A stretch of 64,000 nucleotides of DNA, taken from contig NZ_CP108088.1 of NCBI RefSeq assembly GCF_036192275.1, forward strand, positions 6,263,501 through 6,327,500, in the 5' to 3' direction. How positions within the stretch are numbered: the first letter of the stretch is position 1; each line of letters opens with the position of its first letter. A model generated the notes under the pieces. That model had not been told where the DNA came from. It made no database searches and saw nothing but the letters and a program-made list of their open reading frames with translations. The DNA comes from Streptomyces sp. NBC_00250 (GTDB lineage: Bacteria > Actinomycetota > Actinomycetes > Streptomycetales > Streptomycetaceae). Below are positions 55,184-61,465 of the stretch, one piece after another. Position numbers and translations under genes: made by a program.

Positions 55184-56077
55184 GACGAACTGGGGGCCCA
55201 TGGGCGGCATCCGGAACTCCGGTGCCGGGTTCTGCTCGGGGGCGGTCACCGGCTGCGGATAGCCGTACGCGGGCGCCCGCTCGGGCATGGGCGGGGGCAT
55301 GGTCGGCTGCGGCGGTACGGGGCTGTGGGCGACGGTCAGGTCGAGGTCGGGGCCGGGGGCGCGTACGACGGCCGCCGTGGCCTCCTGGGCCGCTCCTCCG
55401 GCGCCCGGGCCGCCCGGGGCCTCGCGGAAGCCGCCCTGCGCCTCCTGGAGGCCGTCCTGGGCCTCCTGTGCGCCGTGGGCCTCACCCGCCGGCGTGTCCT
55501 GTCCCGCAGCGTCCCGCCCCGCGTCCTGCGCGTCCTCGTCGACGGAGATGCCGAAGTCGGTGGCGAGGCCGATCAGGCCGGTCGGATAGCCCTGGCCCAC
55601 CGCGCGGAACTTCCAGCCGTCCCCGCGGCGGTACAGCTCGCCGCAGATGACCGCCGTCTCCTCGCCCGTCTCCGCCGTCACGGAGAACAGGGCCAGCGCC
55701 TCGGCCTCGGGCCCGGCCGTCGCGTCGTACAGCAGGATCCGCAGGTCGGACACGGAGCGGAAGGTGCCGCCGTCGGAGGAGGCCGCGATCACCACCCGGT
55801 CGACGGAGGGGTCGAGGCTGCCGAGGTCGGCTTCCACGGTGTCCGTGAGACCCTTGGAGTCACGCTTCTTCGGCAGCCGTCGCACCAGGCCCGAAGGGTG
55901 GCGCGGCTGGTTGTAGAAGACGAAGTCCTCGTCGGACCGCACCCGGCCGGAGGGCCCGAGCAACAGGGCCGAGGCATCCACGTCAGGGACCCCGGAGCCC
56001 GGGGTCCAGCGGAGCACGGCCCGTACGGCCGCGGTGTCGAGAGGGACGTTGGAGCCCTTCAGCATCGCGTGCGTCAT
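55175..56077 (-). CDS. TerD-family protein with long low-complexity C-terminal tail
   Basis: A 300-residue protein. Residues 1-180 are a TerD domain ([79 protein letters not shown]). The rest is a tail with Gln/Glu/Gly/Ala repeats (AHGAQEAQDGLQEAQGG) and a proline-rich end (PPQPTMPPPMPE), a form known from Streptomyces TerD-like proteins. ATG 56077 is used; ATG 56065 is possible. It is divergent from the citE-like gene and convergent with the TerA-like gene. Confidence 0.9.
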   Translation of the reverse strand: MTHAMLKGSNVPLDTAAVRAVLRWTPGSGVPDVDASALLLGPSGRVRSDEDFVFYNQPRHPSGLVRRLPKKRDSKGLTDTVEADLGSLDPSVDRVVIAASSDGGTFRSVSDLRILLYDATAGPEAEALALFSVTAETGEETAVICGELYRRGDGWKFRAVGQGYPTGLIGLATDFGISVDEDAQDAGRDAAGQDTPAGEAHGAQEAQDGLQEAQGGFREAPGGPGAGGAAQEATAAVVRAPGPDLDLTVAHSPVPPQPTMPPPMPERAPAYGYPQPVTAPEQNPAPEFRMPPMGPQFVRS

Positions 56078-56263
56078 GACCGCAATCCTGCCCTCCCGGT
56101 CGACCCGCGGACAACGCGGGGGCGTCACCGATACCGGGCCGAGACGACAGATGCTGACGAGTTACCTGGATTTCATACGCGAAGGGAACTGCGGACACCC
56201 GCACCTACGTACTATTACCGGCCACATGTCGACAGGGTCCAGAGAGGTAGACGGGGGACTTAT

Positions 56264-57460
56264 ATGCGTCATTTCGGGCACATCCCGTCCGCGACACGAG
56301 CCGGTCTCTTCCACCGGGAACCGGCCACGTTCACGGCAGATTCGCCCGCGCGCACGCTCGCGGTGGCCCTGGGTGCCACGCTCTACAGCCCGGCCACCCG
56401 GCCGCGGCTCGCCGACGACGTGCGCAAGCAGGCGGCCCGTGGAGTGGTCTCCATGGTGCTCTGCCTGGAGGACTCCATCAGCGACGCCGACGTCGAGGAG
56501 GGCGAGGACAACCTCGTCCGCCAGTTCGCCGACCTCGCCGCCGGGACCGTGACGGACGCCGACACCGCCACGGACACCGCCACCGACGTACCCCTGCTCT
56601 TCATCCGGGTCCGCGATCCGCGCCAGATCACCGACCTCGTCGACCGGCTCGGAGAAACGGTCCGCCTGCTGTCCGGATTCGTACTCCCCAAGTTCACCGA
56701 GACGCGTGGCCACGCCTTCCTCGAAGCGCTCACCCACGCCGAGCGGACGAGCGGCCGGCGCCTCTTCGCCATGCCCGTCCTGGAGTCCCCCGAGCTCCTC
56801 CACCTGGAGACCCGGGCCGAGACCCTCGCCGGCATCGCCTCGATCACCGACAAGTACCGCGACCGCGTCCTCGCCCTGCGCCTCGGCGTCACCGACTTCT
56901 GCTCCGCGTACGGGCTCCGCCGCTCGCCCGACATGACCGCCTACGACGTCAAGATCGTCGCCAACGTCATCGCCGACGTCGTCAACGTCCTCGGCCGCTC
57001 CGACGGCACCGGCTTCACCGTCACCGGCCCCGTCTGGGAGTACTTCCGGCTCGGCGAGCGCATGTTCAAGCCCCAGCTGCGCCGCAGCCCCTTCCTGGAG
57101 GGCCGCGCCGAGGACCTGCGCACCGCCCTCATCGAGCACGACCTCGACGGCCTGCTGCGCGAGATCGAACTCGACCGCGCCAACGGACTGCTCGGCAAGA
57201 CCTGCATCCACCCCACCCATGTGGTGCCGGTGCACGCCCTCTCCGTGGTCAGCCACGAGGAGTGGAGCGACGCCCAGGACATCCTGCGGCCCGAACAGGG
57301 CGGCGGCGGAGTCCTCCGCTCCGCCTACACGAACAAGATGAACGAAGTGAAGCCGCATCGCGCGTGGGCCGAGCGCACCCTCCTGCGCGCCGAGGTCTTC
57401 GGCGTCGCCAACGAGGACGTCGGCTTCGTGGATCTGCTCACCGCCGGACTTGCCGGCTGA
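56264..57460 (+). CDS. HpcH/HpaI/CitE-family C-C lyase of the Ter metabolite operon
   Basis: A 398-residue TIM-barrel lyase of the citrate lyase beta/HpcH family: VSMVLCLEDSISDADVEEGEDNL, FVLPKFTE, LFAMPVLESPELLHL, and HPTHVVPVHA near the end. Family members cleave or form carbon-carbon bonds of small acids. In Ter-linked operons this lyase stands with two phosphoribosyltransferases and a HAD phosphatase in a predicted nucleoside-like pathway. ATG 56264 follows GGGGGA. Eighteen bases separate it from the fused phosphoribosyltransferase gene, so it heads a three-gene operon. Confidence 0.9.
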   Translation: MRHFGHIPSATRAGLFHREPATFTADSPARTLAVALGATLYSPATRPRLADDVRKQAARGVVSMVLCLEDSISDADVEEGEDNLVRQFADLAAGTVTDADTATDTATDVPLLFIRVRDPRQITDLVDRLGETVRLLSGFVLPKFTETRGHAFLEALTHAERTSGRRLFAMPVLESPELLHLETRAETLAGIASITDKYRDRVLALRLGVTDFCSAYGLRRSPDMTAYDVKIVANVIADVVNVLGRSDGTGFTVTGPVWEYFRLGERMFKPQLRRSPFLEGRAEDLRTALIEHDLDGLLREIELDRANGLLGKTCIHPTHVVPVHALSVVSHEEWSDAQDILRPEQGGGGVLRSAYTNKMNEVKPHRAWAERTLLRAEVFGVANEDVGFVDLLTAGLAG

Positions 57461-57478
57461 CGAAGGGACGTCGACGAC

Positions 57479-60211
57479 GTGGTGTGGACCGGAACGTGGG
57501 TCGCGGAGCGACTGGGCGTCGAACTGATCGGCGACGAGGCGCTACCGGCCCTGTTGGGCCTCGCACTGCGTCGCAACCCCAAGCGCGCGCATCTGCTGGT
57601 CTCCAGTGTGCTGGGCAAGCACGTGCCCCAGCGCCCCTCCGTGGTGTACGGCTCCGGCCTCGACCTCGGCCGGCGCGTCCGCGCGCTCCTCGGTGACGAG
57701 GAGGCCGCGCGCTCCGTCGTCCTCGGGTACGCCGAGACCGCCACGGCCCTGGGTCACGCCGTCGCCGACGGCCTCGGCCTCGCCCCGTACCTCCACTCCA
57801 CCCGACGGCCGGTGGACGGGGTCGCCCGCGCGGGCGGCTTCGAGGAGTCCCACTCGCACGCCACCTCGCACCTGCTGCTGCCCGAGGACCCCAAGCTCCT
57901 CGCGGGCGACGGGCCGCTGGTTCTCGTCGACGACGAGTTCTCCACCGGCAACACCGTCCTCAACACCGTGCGTGCCCTGCACGAGCGCTACCCCCGCGAC
58001 CGGTACGTCGTCGTCGCCCTGGTCGACATGCGCTCGGCCGCCGACCTCGGCCGCCTGGACGCCTTCGCCACGGAGATAGGCGCCCGGGTCGACCTGATAT
58101 CCGGCGCCGCCGGGACCGTACGCCTCCCGGAAGGGGTCCTGGAGAAGGGCCAGGCACTGGTGGCGGAACACGAGCGGGCGTACGAGCCGCCGAGCACGGG
58201 AGGTTCGTCCGCCGCCGGCCCCGCATCCGGCTCCGGGCCCGCCCATGGATCGGCGTCCGCATCCGGCTCCGGGCCCGCCCACGGAGCGGCGTCCGCTTCA
58301 GGCTCCGAGTCCGGGCTCGCTGCCGAATCCGCCACGGCCCCGCATCGGCACGAGCCCGTGCGCGTGGCGCTGGACTGGCCGGAGGACGTACCCGACGGCG
58401 GACGGCACGGCTTCACGCCCGACCAGCGCGATCGCCTGGAGACGGCACTGCCCGCCATGGCGCGCAGGATCGCCGAGGCGCTGGGCGGTCCGGCCGCGGA
58501 GGACCGGACCGGTCCCGTGGCCACGCCGTCCGCAGGACCCCGCACCGCAGGACCCCGCGTCCTCGTCCTCGGCTTCGAGGAGCTGATGTACGCGCCGCTG
58601 CGCCTCGGTACCGCCCTGGAGGACGCCGGACTCGACGTCCGCTACTCCACCACCACCCGCTCGCCCGTCCTCGCCGTGGACGACCCCGGCTACGCGATAC
58701 GCACCCGGCTCGTCTTCCCCGCCCACGACGACCCCGCCGACGGCCCCGGCGAGCGCTACGCCTACAACGTGGCCGGCGCGGGCTTCGACGCCGTCGTCCT
58801 CGTCGTCGACTCCACCGCCGACACCCCGGCCCTGCACGCCCCGGACGGCTTGCTCGCCCAGCTCGCCGCGCACATCCCGCGCGTCGTGCTCGCCGTCGTT
58901 CCTTCGTACACCCCGGCGCCCGCGCCGCACCCCCCGTACGAGGCACACGAAGCACACGAAGTACACGAGGCACACGAAGCGCACGCGACCACGCCGAACG
59001 CCTCTCCGTACCCGCCCCAGGTCACCGAAGCTCCCGAAAGGAGCTCCATGCTGCCCGAGCCCCTCCGCGGCCCCGCCTTCTCGTCGTACGCACCCGAGGA
59101 GGTCGGCTGGCTGCTCCAGGACCTCTCGGACGTCGAGTTGGAGGCGCCCACCGAGGAACGCGAGGAAGCCATCCAGAGCGGCGGCGCGCACTACGCCGAG
59201 TCGCTCCCCGTCGAGTACCAGCCCAGCGACCGCTACCAGGAGCTGTTCCACACGGCCCTGGAGACGTCCGCCGCCCGGATCGCCCGCGCCGTCGGCACCG
59301 TCACCGAGACCGTCCTCGCCGAACGGCCGGGCCGCCGACCCGTGCTCGTCTCGCTCGCGCGGGCCGGTACCCCCGTCGGCGTCCTCATGCGCCGCTGGGC
59401 GCAGGCCCGCCACGGCCTCGAACTCCCGCACTACGCCGTCTCCATCGTGCGCGGCCGCGGCATCGACGCCAACGCCCTGCGCTGGCTGGCCGCCCACCAC
59501 GACCCGGCGGACGTCGTGTTCGTCGACGGCTGGACCGGCAAGGGCGCCATCACCCGCGAACTCGCCGACGCCATCAAGGAGTTCGAGGCGGCCGAGGGCG
59601 TCACGGGCTTCGACCCGGAGATCGCGGTCCTCGCCGACCCCGGTTCCTGTGTCCGTACGTACGGCACGCGCGAGGACTTCCTCATCCCCTCCGCCTGCCT
59701 CAACTCCACGGTCTCCGGCCTGATATCCCGTACGGTCCTCCGTGCCGACCTCGTCGGACCGGACGACTTCCACGGCGGGAAGTTCTACCGCGAACTGGCC
59801 GGCGCCGATGTCTCCAACGACTTCCTCGACGCCGTCGCCGCCCGCTTCGACGAGGTCGGCGGAGCCGTCGACACCGACACCAAGGAACTCCTGGCCGCCG
59901 ACCGCACTCCCACCTGGGAGGGCTGGGCCGCCGTGGAGCGGATCAGCGAGGAGTACGGCATCCACGACGTCAACCTGGTCAAGCCGGGCGTCGGCGAGAC
60001 CACCCGCGTCCTGCTCCGCCGCGTCCCCTGGAAGATCCTCGCCAAGCGGGGCGCCGACGCCGACCTCGCGCACGTCCGGCTGCTCGCCGAGCAGCGCGGC
60101 GTACCGGTCGAGATCGTCGACGAACTCCCGTACAGCTGCGTCGGTCTGATACACCCTCAGTACACCAGGGGTGCGACAGGCGCCGACGGCAGGGCGGTGG
60201 TGTCCCAGTGA
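57479..60211 (+). CDS. Fused phosphoribosyltransferase - TRSP - StiP protein
   Basis: A 910-residue three-part protein. Residues about 1-235: a phosphoribosyltransferase with PRPP loop VLVDDEFSTGNT (Val150-Asp151-Asp152). About 240-285: low-complexity linker containing a 36-bp DNA repeat. About 300-470: TRSP domain with the signature TRSP at 393-396. About 475-523: His/Glu/Ala-rich linker (HEAHEVHEAHEAH). From 524: StiP-type domain with a second PRPP-like loop VFVDGWTGKGAIT (Asp683) and the C-terminal PYSCVGLIHPQYTRG. In many genomes the first and last parts are separate proteins. An internal ribosome binding site and ATG lie at the StiP boundary. GTG 57479 start; overlaps the HAD gene (GTGA). 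Confidence 0.88.
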   Translation: MVWTGTWVAERLGVELIGDEALPALLGLALRRNPKRAHLLVSSVLGKHVPQRPSVVYGSGLDLGRRVRALLGDEEAARSVVLGYAETATALGHAVADGLGLAPYLHSTRRPVDGVARAGGFEESHSHATSHLLLPEDPKLLAGDGPLVLVDDEFSTGNTVLNTVRALHERYPRDRYVVVALVDMRSAADLGRLDAFATEIGARVDLISGAAGTVRLPEGVLEKGQALVAEHERAYEPPSTGGSSAAGPASGSGPAHGSASASGSGPAHGAASASGSESGLAAESATAPHRHEPVRVALDWPEDVPDGGRHGFTPDQRDRLETALPAMARRIAEALGGPAAEDRTGPVATPSAGPRTAGPRVLVLGFEELMYAPLRLGTALEDAGLDVRYSTTTRSPVLAVDDPGYAIRTRLVFPAHDDPADGPGERYAYNVAGAGFDAVVLVVDSTADTPALHAPDGLLAQLAAHIPRVVLAVVPSYTPAPAPHPPYEAHEAHEVHEAHEAHATTPNASPYPPQVTEAPERSSMLPEPLRGPAFSSYAPEEVGWLLQDLSDVELEAPTEEREEAIQSGGAHYAESLPVEYQPSDRYQELFHTALETSAARIARAVGTVTETVLAERPGRRPVLVSLARAGTPVGVLMRRWAQARHGLELPHYAVSIVRGRGIDANALRWLAAHHDPADVVFVDGWTGKGAITRELADAIKEFEAAEGVTGFDPEIAVLADPGSCVRTYGTREDFLIPSACLNSTVSGLISRTVLRADLVGPDDFHGGKFYRELAGADVSNDFLDAVAARFDEVGGAVDTDTKELLAADRTPTWEGWAAVERISEEYGIHDVNLVKPGVGETTRVLLRRVPWKILAKRGADADLAHVRLLAEQRGVPVEIVDELPYSCVGLIHPQYTRGATGADGRAVVSQ
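58223..58294 (+). repeat. Two 36-bp direct repeats in the PRTase-TRSP linker
   Basis: Units 58223-58258 and 58259-58294 differ at few positions and encode ASGSGPAHG(S/A)AS; a decayed third copy follows. In frame, so copy number could vary freely. Confidence 0.85.
59037..59050 (+). promoter_or_regulatory. In-frame internal ribosome binding site and ATG before the StiP domain
   Basis: AAAGGAG (59037-59043), four bases, then ATG (59048-59050) in the frame of the fused gene. Translation from here would give a 387-residue stand-alone StiP protein beginning MLPEPLRGPAFSSYAPEEVGW. The spacing is slightly short but usable. Confidence 0.65.
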
Positions 60212-61065
60212 GTACGACTCCAGTGAGCACGGACTCGGTGAGTGCGACGACGGCTCAGGTCCCCGTACTGGTCGCGAGCGACCTCGACCGCACCCTCATC
60301 TACTCGTCCGCGGCCCTCGCCCTCGGCATGCCCGACGCCCAGGCGCCCCGGCTGCTCTGCGTCGAGGTCCACGAGTCCAAGCCGCTCTCCTACATGACCG
60401 AGGACGCGGCCGACCTGCTCGCGCGGCTGACCGCCGAAACCGTCTTCGTCCCCACCACCACCCGGACGCGCAAGCAGTACCAGCGCATCCAACTCCCCGG
60501 CACCGCACCGAAGTACGCGATCTGCGCCAACGGCGGCCACATCCTCGTCGACGGCGTCACCGACGCCGACTGGCACGCCTCCGTACTGCGCAGGCTCGCC
60601 GAGGAATGCGCGCCGCTCTCCGAGATCCGCGCCTACCTCACCGCCACCACGGACCTGTCCTGGGTACGCAAGCACCGCGTCGCCGAGGACCTGTTCGCCT
60701 ACCTCGTCGTCGAGCGGGAACGGCTCCCCGAGGACTGGCTGGGACGCTTCGGCGACTGGGCGGGGGAGCGCGGCTGGACGGTCTCGCTCCAGGGCCGCAA
60801 GGTGTACGCCGTACCGAAGCCGCTCACCAAGAGCGCGGCCGTCCGCGAGGTCGCCCGCCGCATCGGCGCCACGCTCACCCTGGCCGCGGGCGACTCCCTC
60901 CTCGACGCCGACCTGCTGCTCGCCGCGGACCGGGCCTGGCGCCCGGGCCACGGCGAACTGGCCGACAGCGACTGGACCGCCCCCCACCTCGACGTCCTCG
61001 CGGAACGCGGGGTCGCGGCGGGGGAGGAGATCCTGCGCCGCTTCAGGGCGGCGGCCGCCGTCTGA
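60208..61065 (+). CDS. HAD-family phosphatase of the Ter metabolite operon
   Basis: A 285-residue Cof-type HAD hydrolase. Motif I is ASDLDRTLIYSS with Asp25 and Asp27, motif II VPTTTRT, motif III lysine in KPLTKSAAV, motif IV AGDSLLDADLL. It would remove a phosphate from a small molecule, plausibly the product of the phosphoribosyltransferases. GTG 60208 overlaps the preceding stop; further GTG codons at 60223 and 60238 are alternatives. It is convergent with the FmdB gene, six bases away. Confidence 0.9.
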   Translation: MSTTPVSTDSVSATTAQVPVLVASDLDRTLIYSSAALALGMPDAQAPRLLCVEVHESKPLSYMTEDAADLLARLTAETVFVPTTTRTRKQYQRIQLPGTAPKYAICANGGHILVDGVTDADWHASVLRRLAEECAPLSEIRAYLTATTDLSWVRKHRVAEDLFAYLVVERERLPEDWLGRFGDWAGERGWTVSLQGRKVYAVPKPLTKSAAVREVARRIGATLTLAAGDSLLDADLLLAADRAWRPGHGELADSDWTAPHLDVLAERGVAAGEEILRRFRAAAAV

Positions 61066-61071
61066 GGCGTC

Positions 61072-61293
61072 TCAGCCGCAGCAACCCCCACCGCAGCAGC
61101 CACCCCCGCCTCCGCCCCCGCCGCCGCTCGGCGCGGGGGCGGAGGACGAGCCGCCGACGGCCACGGCCGAGAGCAGCTTCACGGTGTCGTCGTGCCCGGC
61201 GGGGCAGGAGGCCGGATCGGAGGACTCGGCCATGGGACGGCTGAGCTCGAAGGTGTCGCCGCAGGTACGGCAGCGGAATTCGTAACGAGGCAT
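61072..61293 (-). CDS. FmdB-family zinc ribbon protein with Gly/Cys tail
   Basis: A 73-residue protein. The FmdB zinc ribbon is MPRYEFRCRTCGDTFELSRPMAES...SCPAGH, with ligands CRTC and CPAGH. The C-terminus is a run of nine glycines followed by CCGGGCCG, which could bind metal. The start is the conserved MPRYEF. Role of FmdB-like proteins is not well defined. Convergent with the HAD gene. Confidence 0.88.
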   Translation of the reverse strand: MPRYEFRCRTCGDTFELSRPMAESSDPASCPAGHDDTVKLLSAVAVGGSSSAPAPSGGGGGGGGGCCGGGCCG

Positions 61294-61368
61294 GGGAACA
61301 GGCTAGAGCCTGCGCCCGGCCAGGGGCAGGTGCCCCGGCCTCGCACCGGGGCGCGCGCTCCGGGAGCG

Positions 61369-61465
61369 CCGGGCAGGTGCCTCGGTCCTCCGGTCCCGGC
61401 TCCGCGCCCGGGGGTCACGGGCAGGTACCCCGGGGTACCCCGGTCCTCCGGTCCCGGCCCCGCGC
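61369..61465. repeat. Two imperfect ~55-bp repeats upstream of fmdB-like gene
   Basis: GGGCAGGT plus a 25-bp core CGGTCCTCCGGTCCCGGCTC... occurs at 61369-61407 and again at 61419-61465 with an 8-base insertion (CGGGGTAC). The cores 61383-61407 and 61441-61465 match at 24 of 25 positions. They fill the gap between fmdB and the coiled-coil gene. Confidence 0.75.

Follow-up and report, generated by a model that had tools for sequence, protein, structure and literature searches.

A conserved internal start signal at the StiP seam of a fused PRTase_2-TRSP-StiP-PELOTA gene suggests a dual-product gene in Streptomyces

The window analyzed here, a stretch of 64,000 nucleotides from Streptomyces sp. 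NBC_00250, carries a fused gene of 910 codons whose reading frame is free of stops from its GTG start to its end (57479-60211, forward strand). The absence of a stop between the TRSP and StiP parts, which had been remarked upon in the preliminary description, was thus verified on the ORF. A search of the genome of the strain returned one match to this gene. The four domains PRTase_2, TRSP, StiP and PELOTA_1 (Table 1) all exceeded the Pfam gathering cut-offs. When compared by sequence with the PDB, StiP, for which the "two-PRTase pathway" of the preliminary description would imply a PRTase activity, gave no convincing relative (best match E 0.27); the name of its family in Pfam is that of a cysteine protease. 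Each of the two inter-domain linkers contains a tandem repeat, at 58221-58307 (36 bp, 2.4 copies) and 58938-58985 (9 bp, 5.3 copies), and each period is a multiple of three. The second of these, with its 9-bp unit, corresponds to the repetitive linker that had been noted ahead of StiP.

Table 1. Coordinates of the fused gene, its parts and its immediate neighbours in the window.
Feature	Coordinates	Strand	Basis or remark
C-C_Bond_Lyase (PF15617), upstream neighbour	56354..57460	+	Pfam E 1.9e-121; coordinates run from first matched residue to stop, start codon not fixed
Fused ORF PRTase_2-TRSP-linker-StiP-PELOTA, 910 aa, GTG start	57479..60211	+	ORF list and Pfam
PRTase_2 (PF15609), residues 25-212	57551..58114	+	Pfam E 1.8e-66
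TRSP (PF12500), residues 306-461	58394..58861	+	Pfam E 5.5e-37
Inter-domain linker, hypervariable, 9-bp repeat 58938-58985 inside	58862..59047	+	
Internal Shine-Dalgarno (SD) GAAAGGAG, codons GAA AGG AG.	59036..59043	+	anti-SD match
Internal in-frame ATG, Met524, predicted start of free StiP-PELOTA	59048..59050	+	
Predicted second product StiP-PELOTA, 387 aa, roughly 42 kDa	59048..60211	+	inferred from sequence
StiP (PF11202), residues 535-786	59081..59836	+	Pfam E 6.6e-106
PELOTA_1 (PF15608), residues 813-892	59915..60154	+	Pfam E 3.6e-35
HAD-like gene, downstream	60208..61065	+	its GTG overlaps the stop of the fused gene (GTGA)

Five further ORFs were scanned upstream. TerD was found in three of them (51.1-52.4, 52.5-53.1 and 55.2-56.1 kb) and TerC at 53.1-54.3 kb, and the ORF at 54.3-55.1 kb matched neither TerD nor TerC. 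On the other side, the HAD-like label of the downstream gene is a weak one (TIGR01486, E 1e-4, under the family cut-off; no Pfam match). Adjoining this gene, an ORF of 73 amino acids (MPRYEFRCRTCG..., 61072-61293, reverse strand) has Cys in its N-terminal part and a tail rich in glycine and cysteine, and by eye it looks FmdB-like. No sigma-70-type promoter and no terminator was found in 55900-61400 by a scan of the sigma-70 type, other Streptomyces promoters being outside its reach. By its domain content and its TerD, TerC and lyase neighbours, the fused gene fits the Ter-associated PRTase_2-TRSP/StiP-PELOTA set. A Ter gene set with PRTase_2, TRSP, StiP, PELOTA, C-C lyase and HAD was reportedly described by Anantharaman, Iyer and Aravind in 2012 from domain and gene-context analysis, and the same domains and neighbours are present in the window.

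At the seam between TRSP and StiP, the motif AAAGGAG (59037-59043) lies within the octamer GAAAGGAG, and 4 nt beyond it stands an ATG in frame with the GTG, from which it is separated by 1569 nt, or 523 codons. A start codon in frame, with an SD at a workable distance, is thus present within a longer ORF. Since the 16S rRNA 3′ ends of the source genome read GGCTGGATCACCTCCTTTCT (5 sites), the whole of GAAAGGAG is a perfect anti-SD match of 8 nt. The repetitive linker precedes the ATG and the StiP profile match begins 11 codons past it, which places motif and start codon at the beginning of the StiP part, as reported in the preliminary description.

Of 121 genomes drawn evenly from the genus, with the window itself representing the source genome, 119 contained StiP, with 114 loci fused, 3 split (L208, L217, L225) and 2 at contig ends (L197, L232), the latter being counted neither as fused nor as split. 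In other genera of the family, 29 of 60 loci were fused and 31 split, and separate genes there frequently overlap or lie close together. These 60 family loci, together with 20 loci of the class and with L121-L123, L245 and L246, formed an extra set of 85 (39 fused, 45 split, 1 without a PRTase match). L245 (G022, C2:545175-548595) is a second, diverged StiP of 59% identity in an open frame of 440 aa on a 555-kb contig; the fetched stretch holds no PRTase match, and the same genome also carries a fused gene. In L244 (G378) and L239 (G429), the StiP match comes in two pieces, which may reflect sequencing error or decay. Also, a motif scan of 80 named contigs (79 with Streptomyces in the title, 1 with Microtetraspora) placed 79 of them (L066 was missed), with an ATG at the seam in 77 and a GTG in 2.

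Two trees were built, one of StiP (204 rows, FastTree) and one of PRTase and StiP concatenated (190 rows, quick IQ-TREE), a usable PRTase being present in 196 of the 204 rows, from which L346, L335, L347, L332, L330 and L244 were then omitted. The remote L124 and L125, as well as L126, which has no StiP match, were excluded from all trees. A core clade of the genus was recovered in both (95 rows in the StiP tree; 91 rows with an SH-aLRT of 96 in the concatenated tree) and includes not a single split gene in either, L197 being cut by a contig end. On each of the two trees, the fused and split states have switched at least 14 times. The 93 fused genes of the core clade were the basis of the signal tests.

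The linker ranged between 8 and 92 aa in 87 of the 93 core rows, with 33 different lengths and at least 56 length changes, all of them multiples of three; the TRSP end was located by a text pattern, so that individual lengths are approximate, and the 6 rows without a recognisable TRSP end were left out of the count. By definition a fused row is in frame; the informative point is that zero core rows are out of frame. Taken together, the in-frame length changes and the lack of split core genes suggest that selection acts on the fused frame; the fusion itself thus appears to be under selection too, with the long frame maintained. This bears on the reading in which initiation at the second start makes free StiP the predominant protein, with the fusion as a minor by-product. 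In the NBC_00250 gene, the internal SD does surpass that of the GTG start (8 nt and −12.1 against 4 nt and −10.8), as such a reading would lead one to expect. Nevertheless, the upkeep of the frame through so many linker changes speaks against it, and we consider it unlikely.

The conservation of the start signal was scored as a contiguous anti-SD match at 4-12 nt from the start codon, and windows of equal size from the rest of each gene served as control. An ATG or GTG with an SD of at least 4 nt was found at the seam of 89 of the 93 core genes, against 552 of 4637 control windows. With stricter settings the separation was sharper: ATG with an SD of at least 5 nt in 64/93 against 4/4637, and with at least 6 nt in 50/93 against 2/4637. 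The core rows are kin and these raw counts are not independent of one another. A signal present in 64 of 93 seams and in 4 of 4637 windows elsewhere goes beyond chance. Four core genes (L220, L227, L139, L152) failed the first criterion. L220 and L227 lack an ATG or GTG with SD at the seam, and L139 and L152 retain the ATG behind GAAGAGAG, an imperfect SD. The L227 seam has a CTG codon preceded at 4 nt by GGAGGA; this may be a site in decay or a start of non-standard type. Of the 21 fused genes of the genus that fall outside the core clade, only 2 had ATG with an SD of at least 4 nt, near the background of 28 in 1070 control windows, which indicates that the second start is dispensable there. 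This comparison of fused orthologues, which had been proposed in the preliminary description as a check, supports the dual start as a conserved trait confined, in our sample, to one large clade of the genus.

Other indicators were discarded. Duplex energy alone separates poorly, as values of −5 kcal/mol or lower were reached by 83 of 90 seam ATGs and also by 295 of 525 other internal ATGs, and contiguous anti-SD matches were therefore used. A looser count, in which every GTG close to the seam was admitted, gave 96 of 114 fused genes; it included spurious GTGs and was replaced by the windowed control. Local RNA structure at the start was weaker (−9.2 vs. −17.4 kcal/mol, 40 sampled rows), and the openness of the RNA was rejected as evidence, since base composition explains most of it (relative to shuffled sequences, +0.6; n = 89). 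Of 120 listed proteins, 24 were given a start at the seam Met by gene callers; this reflects a preference of the software, probably on broken or partial frames, and is no evidence of translation.

The split relatives bear on the origin of this signal. In L208, L217 and L316, an in-frame stop lies 3 nt ahead of the homologous ATG, and in L298, L306 and L324 the two genes overlap out of frame. The fused L207 and L218 are the sister pair of the split L208 and L217 in the concatenated tree, with 4 differences between L207 and L208 over the 23 nt that end with the ATG. Some split relatives begin StiP at the homologous site, so the simplest account is that the internal ATG is the ancestral StiP start and that the fusion arose by loss of a stop, even if trees alone do not fix the direction of each change. 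The SD match has a median of 6 nt in fused core genes (n = 93; −7.4 kcal/mol) and of 4 nt in split genes of the family (n = 34; −4.3 kcal/mol), in a comparison which ignores phylogeny and whose energies cover the rows with a site. As the fused gene contains no stop, there is no reinitiation and the second start must recruit ribosomes directly; the longer SD of the fused core genes is consistent with such a need.

One of the two possibilities raised in the preliminary description was a fusion of recent date in which the old start signal survives. The survival of that signal agrees with our data, the signal being most simply the old StiP start, but the recency does not hold, because 89 of 93 core genes share the fused state and the SD with start, and the median difference between core genes at four-fold sites is 41% (400 sampled pairs). 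Persistence, not recency, is thus indicated. The signal could still be regarded as a relic that the fusion has yet to lose, with free StiP of no consequence. Such a relic would be inherited, in line with the true starts of split relatives, and the presence of ATG and SD in 2/21 genes outside the core clade is in its favour. However, the site has lasted beside a hypervariable linker, and it has been retained through changes of SD type. GAAAGG-type SDs occur in 50 core rows (PER in 37, TER in 6, others in 7), AGGA in 32 (mostly RQE) and others in 7, and the two main types overlap in L196. At least 10 switches of type on the StiP tree, or 11 on the concatenated tree, were counted, for example from PER to RQE, with the SD retained each time. 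Windowed conservation, four-fold divergence and these switches largely refute the relic, which we judge very improbable.

In five related genomes (L144, L145, L157, L189, L194), GTG stands in place of ATG with CAGGAG intact, so that the property kept is a start codon and not a methionine, GTG here encoding Val. The offset of the start relative to StiP varies from −36 to +3 nt with at least 12 changes, and the SD remains upstream.

Codon columns were followed on the tree in the 73 core rows with ATG or GTG exactly at the anchor. Arg in the SD column is encoded by AGG in 49 rows and by AGA in 3, that is, by AGR in 52 of the 52 core rows with Arg there, against a background of 2.4% AGG and 0.5% AGA (2.9% in sum) among 7891 Arg codons. 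It is the only one of 70 Arg columns with more than 30% AGR, and on the tree it shows a single codon change; among 49 other Arg columns, only 2 have as few. The SD Glu column reads GAA in 48/51 rows against a background of 15.7%; its slowness on the tree is not unusual, being matched by 20 of 30 Glu columns. Among codons −12 to −6 before the start, the top residue reaches at most 30 of 73 rows. Compared with like columns, codons +1 to +12 past the ATG change a little more slowly (mean percentile 0.23, 11 columns), and codons +13 to +39 have a mean percentile of 0.40 (19 columns). The signal is conserved at the nucleotide level beyond the needs of the protein, although the Glu column alone does not show this.

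These data also allow two readings without initiation to be weighed. A rare AGG and an SD-like sequence might slow the ribosome at the domain boundary for co-translational folding; the site is indeed located at such a boundary, and AGG accounts for only 2.4% of Arg codons. Yet a pause of this kind predicts neither a start codon at SD spacing nor the exchange of ATG and GTG, and of the 32 core genes whose SD is of AGGA type, 28 carry neither AGG nor AGA in the seven codons before the start. We regard the pause as a most improbable explanation. Conservation of (P)ERxxM(LPEPLRG) for protein function, for example as a cleavage site, is scarcely credible, for although LPEPLRG is nearly invariant beyond the Met in the 73 core rows, it is a nucleotide-level property that is kept (AGR in 52/52) and the peptide ahead of the start changes (PER, TER, RQE, EKR) while the SD stays.

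We therefore return to the dual-product gene. It is very probable, in view of the comparative evidence, that this gene resulted from stop-codon loss in a coupled gene pair, was then kept by selection, and yields both the fusion and free StiP-PELOTA. In some split relatives the homologous site is a genuine start, and SD, start and frame are conserved beyond protein need. A working second start, the other possibility put forward in the preliminary description, is supported by the conservation, rare-codon, SD-type and frame tests. Initiation at GTG 57479 would give the 910-aa PRTase_2-TRSP-StiP-PELOTA fusion, and 30S subunits binding GAAAGGAG would start independently at ATG 59048 and give the free StiP-PELOTA of 387 aa. 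The ancestor was probably a translationally coupled two-gene pair, the in-frame stop of the first gene would have been lost, fusing the genes, and the SD and start of the second gene would have been kept, and probably strengthened, by selection. From these data we infer the production of both proteins; its purpose may be a surplus of StiP over PRTase_2, for example for unequal subunit numbers in a complex. The two products might also be made in a chosen ratio, as a dosage device, as put forward in the preliminary description. More tentatively, it is possible, if not quite probable, that fusion ends reinitiation, that selection strengthens the internal SD in response, and that the mix of fused and free protein serves a complex with more StiP than PRTase_2. 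This would be a general route from operon to dual-product gene, and one that can be read from genomes.

Among the literature matches listed, no paper concerned the PRTase_2-TRSP/StiP junction. SCO2366 proved to encode FasR and is irrelevant here. The closest precedent is Cas11, which is described as arising from an internal start in cas8 or cas10 genes of type I-B, I-C and I-D CRISPR-Cas systems, the small product having been demonstrated experimentally (PMC11899642). What the two cases share is a start lying in frame within the gene for a large protein, from which the C-terminal part is, or in our case would be, made separately and in unequal stoichiometry; the proteins differ, however, and the second product is deduced here from sequence, whereas the small Cas11 product is experimental (PMC11899642). 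Also, unlike Cas11, the seam start would be an ancestral gene start left in a fusion, because the halves are separate genes in relatives. In Salmonella, in a Ribo-RET study, pairs of N-terminal proteoforms made by alternative in-frame initiation were detected experimentally (PMC11005335). These share with the fused gene the principle of one frame, two starts and two proteins, but our case is derived from conservation, and its second product would be a whole independent domain set. Finally, overlapping or closely spaced gene pairs are described as coupled by termination and reinitiation (PMC10666635). Many split relatives resemble them, with a stop overlapping the start or a few nt from it, and may be coupled likewise; the fused gene differs in having no stop. 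Internal in-frame initiation is already known, as in Cas11, and the fused StiP case would have reached it by a well documented evolutionary route.

Annotation would list one protein for this gene, where evolution points to two. One bacterial family displays the split, the dual-start and the start-less fused states, and with them a path from separate genes through stop loss to a kept second start. The case further suggests a role of some importance for free StiP-PELOTA in the Ter pathway, itself poorly understood.
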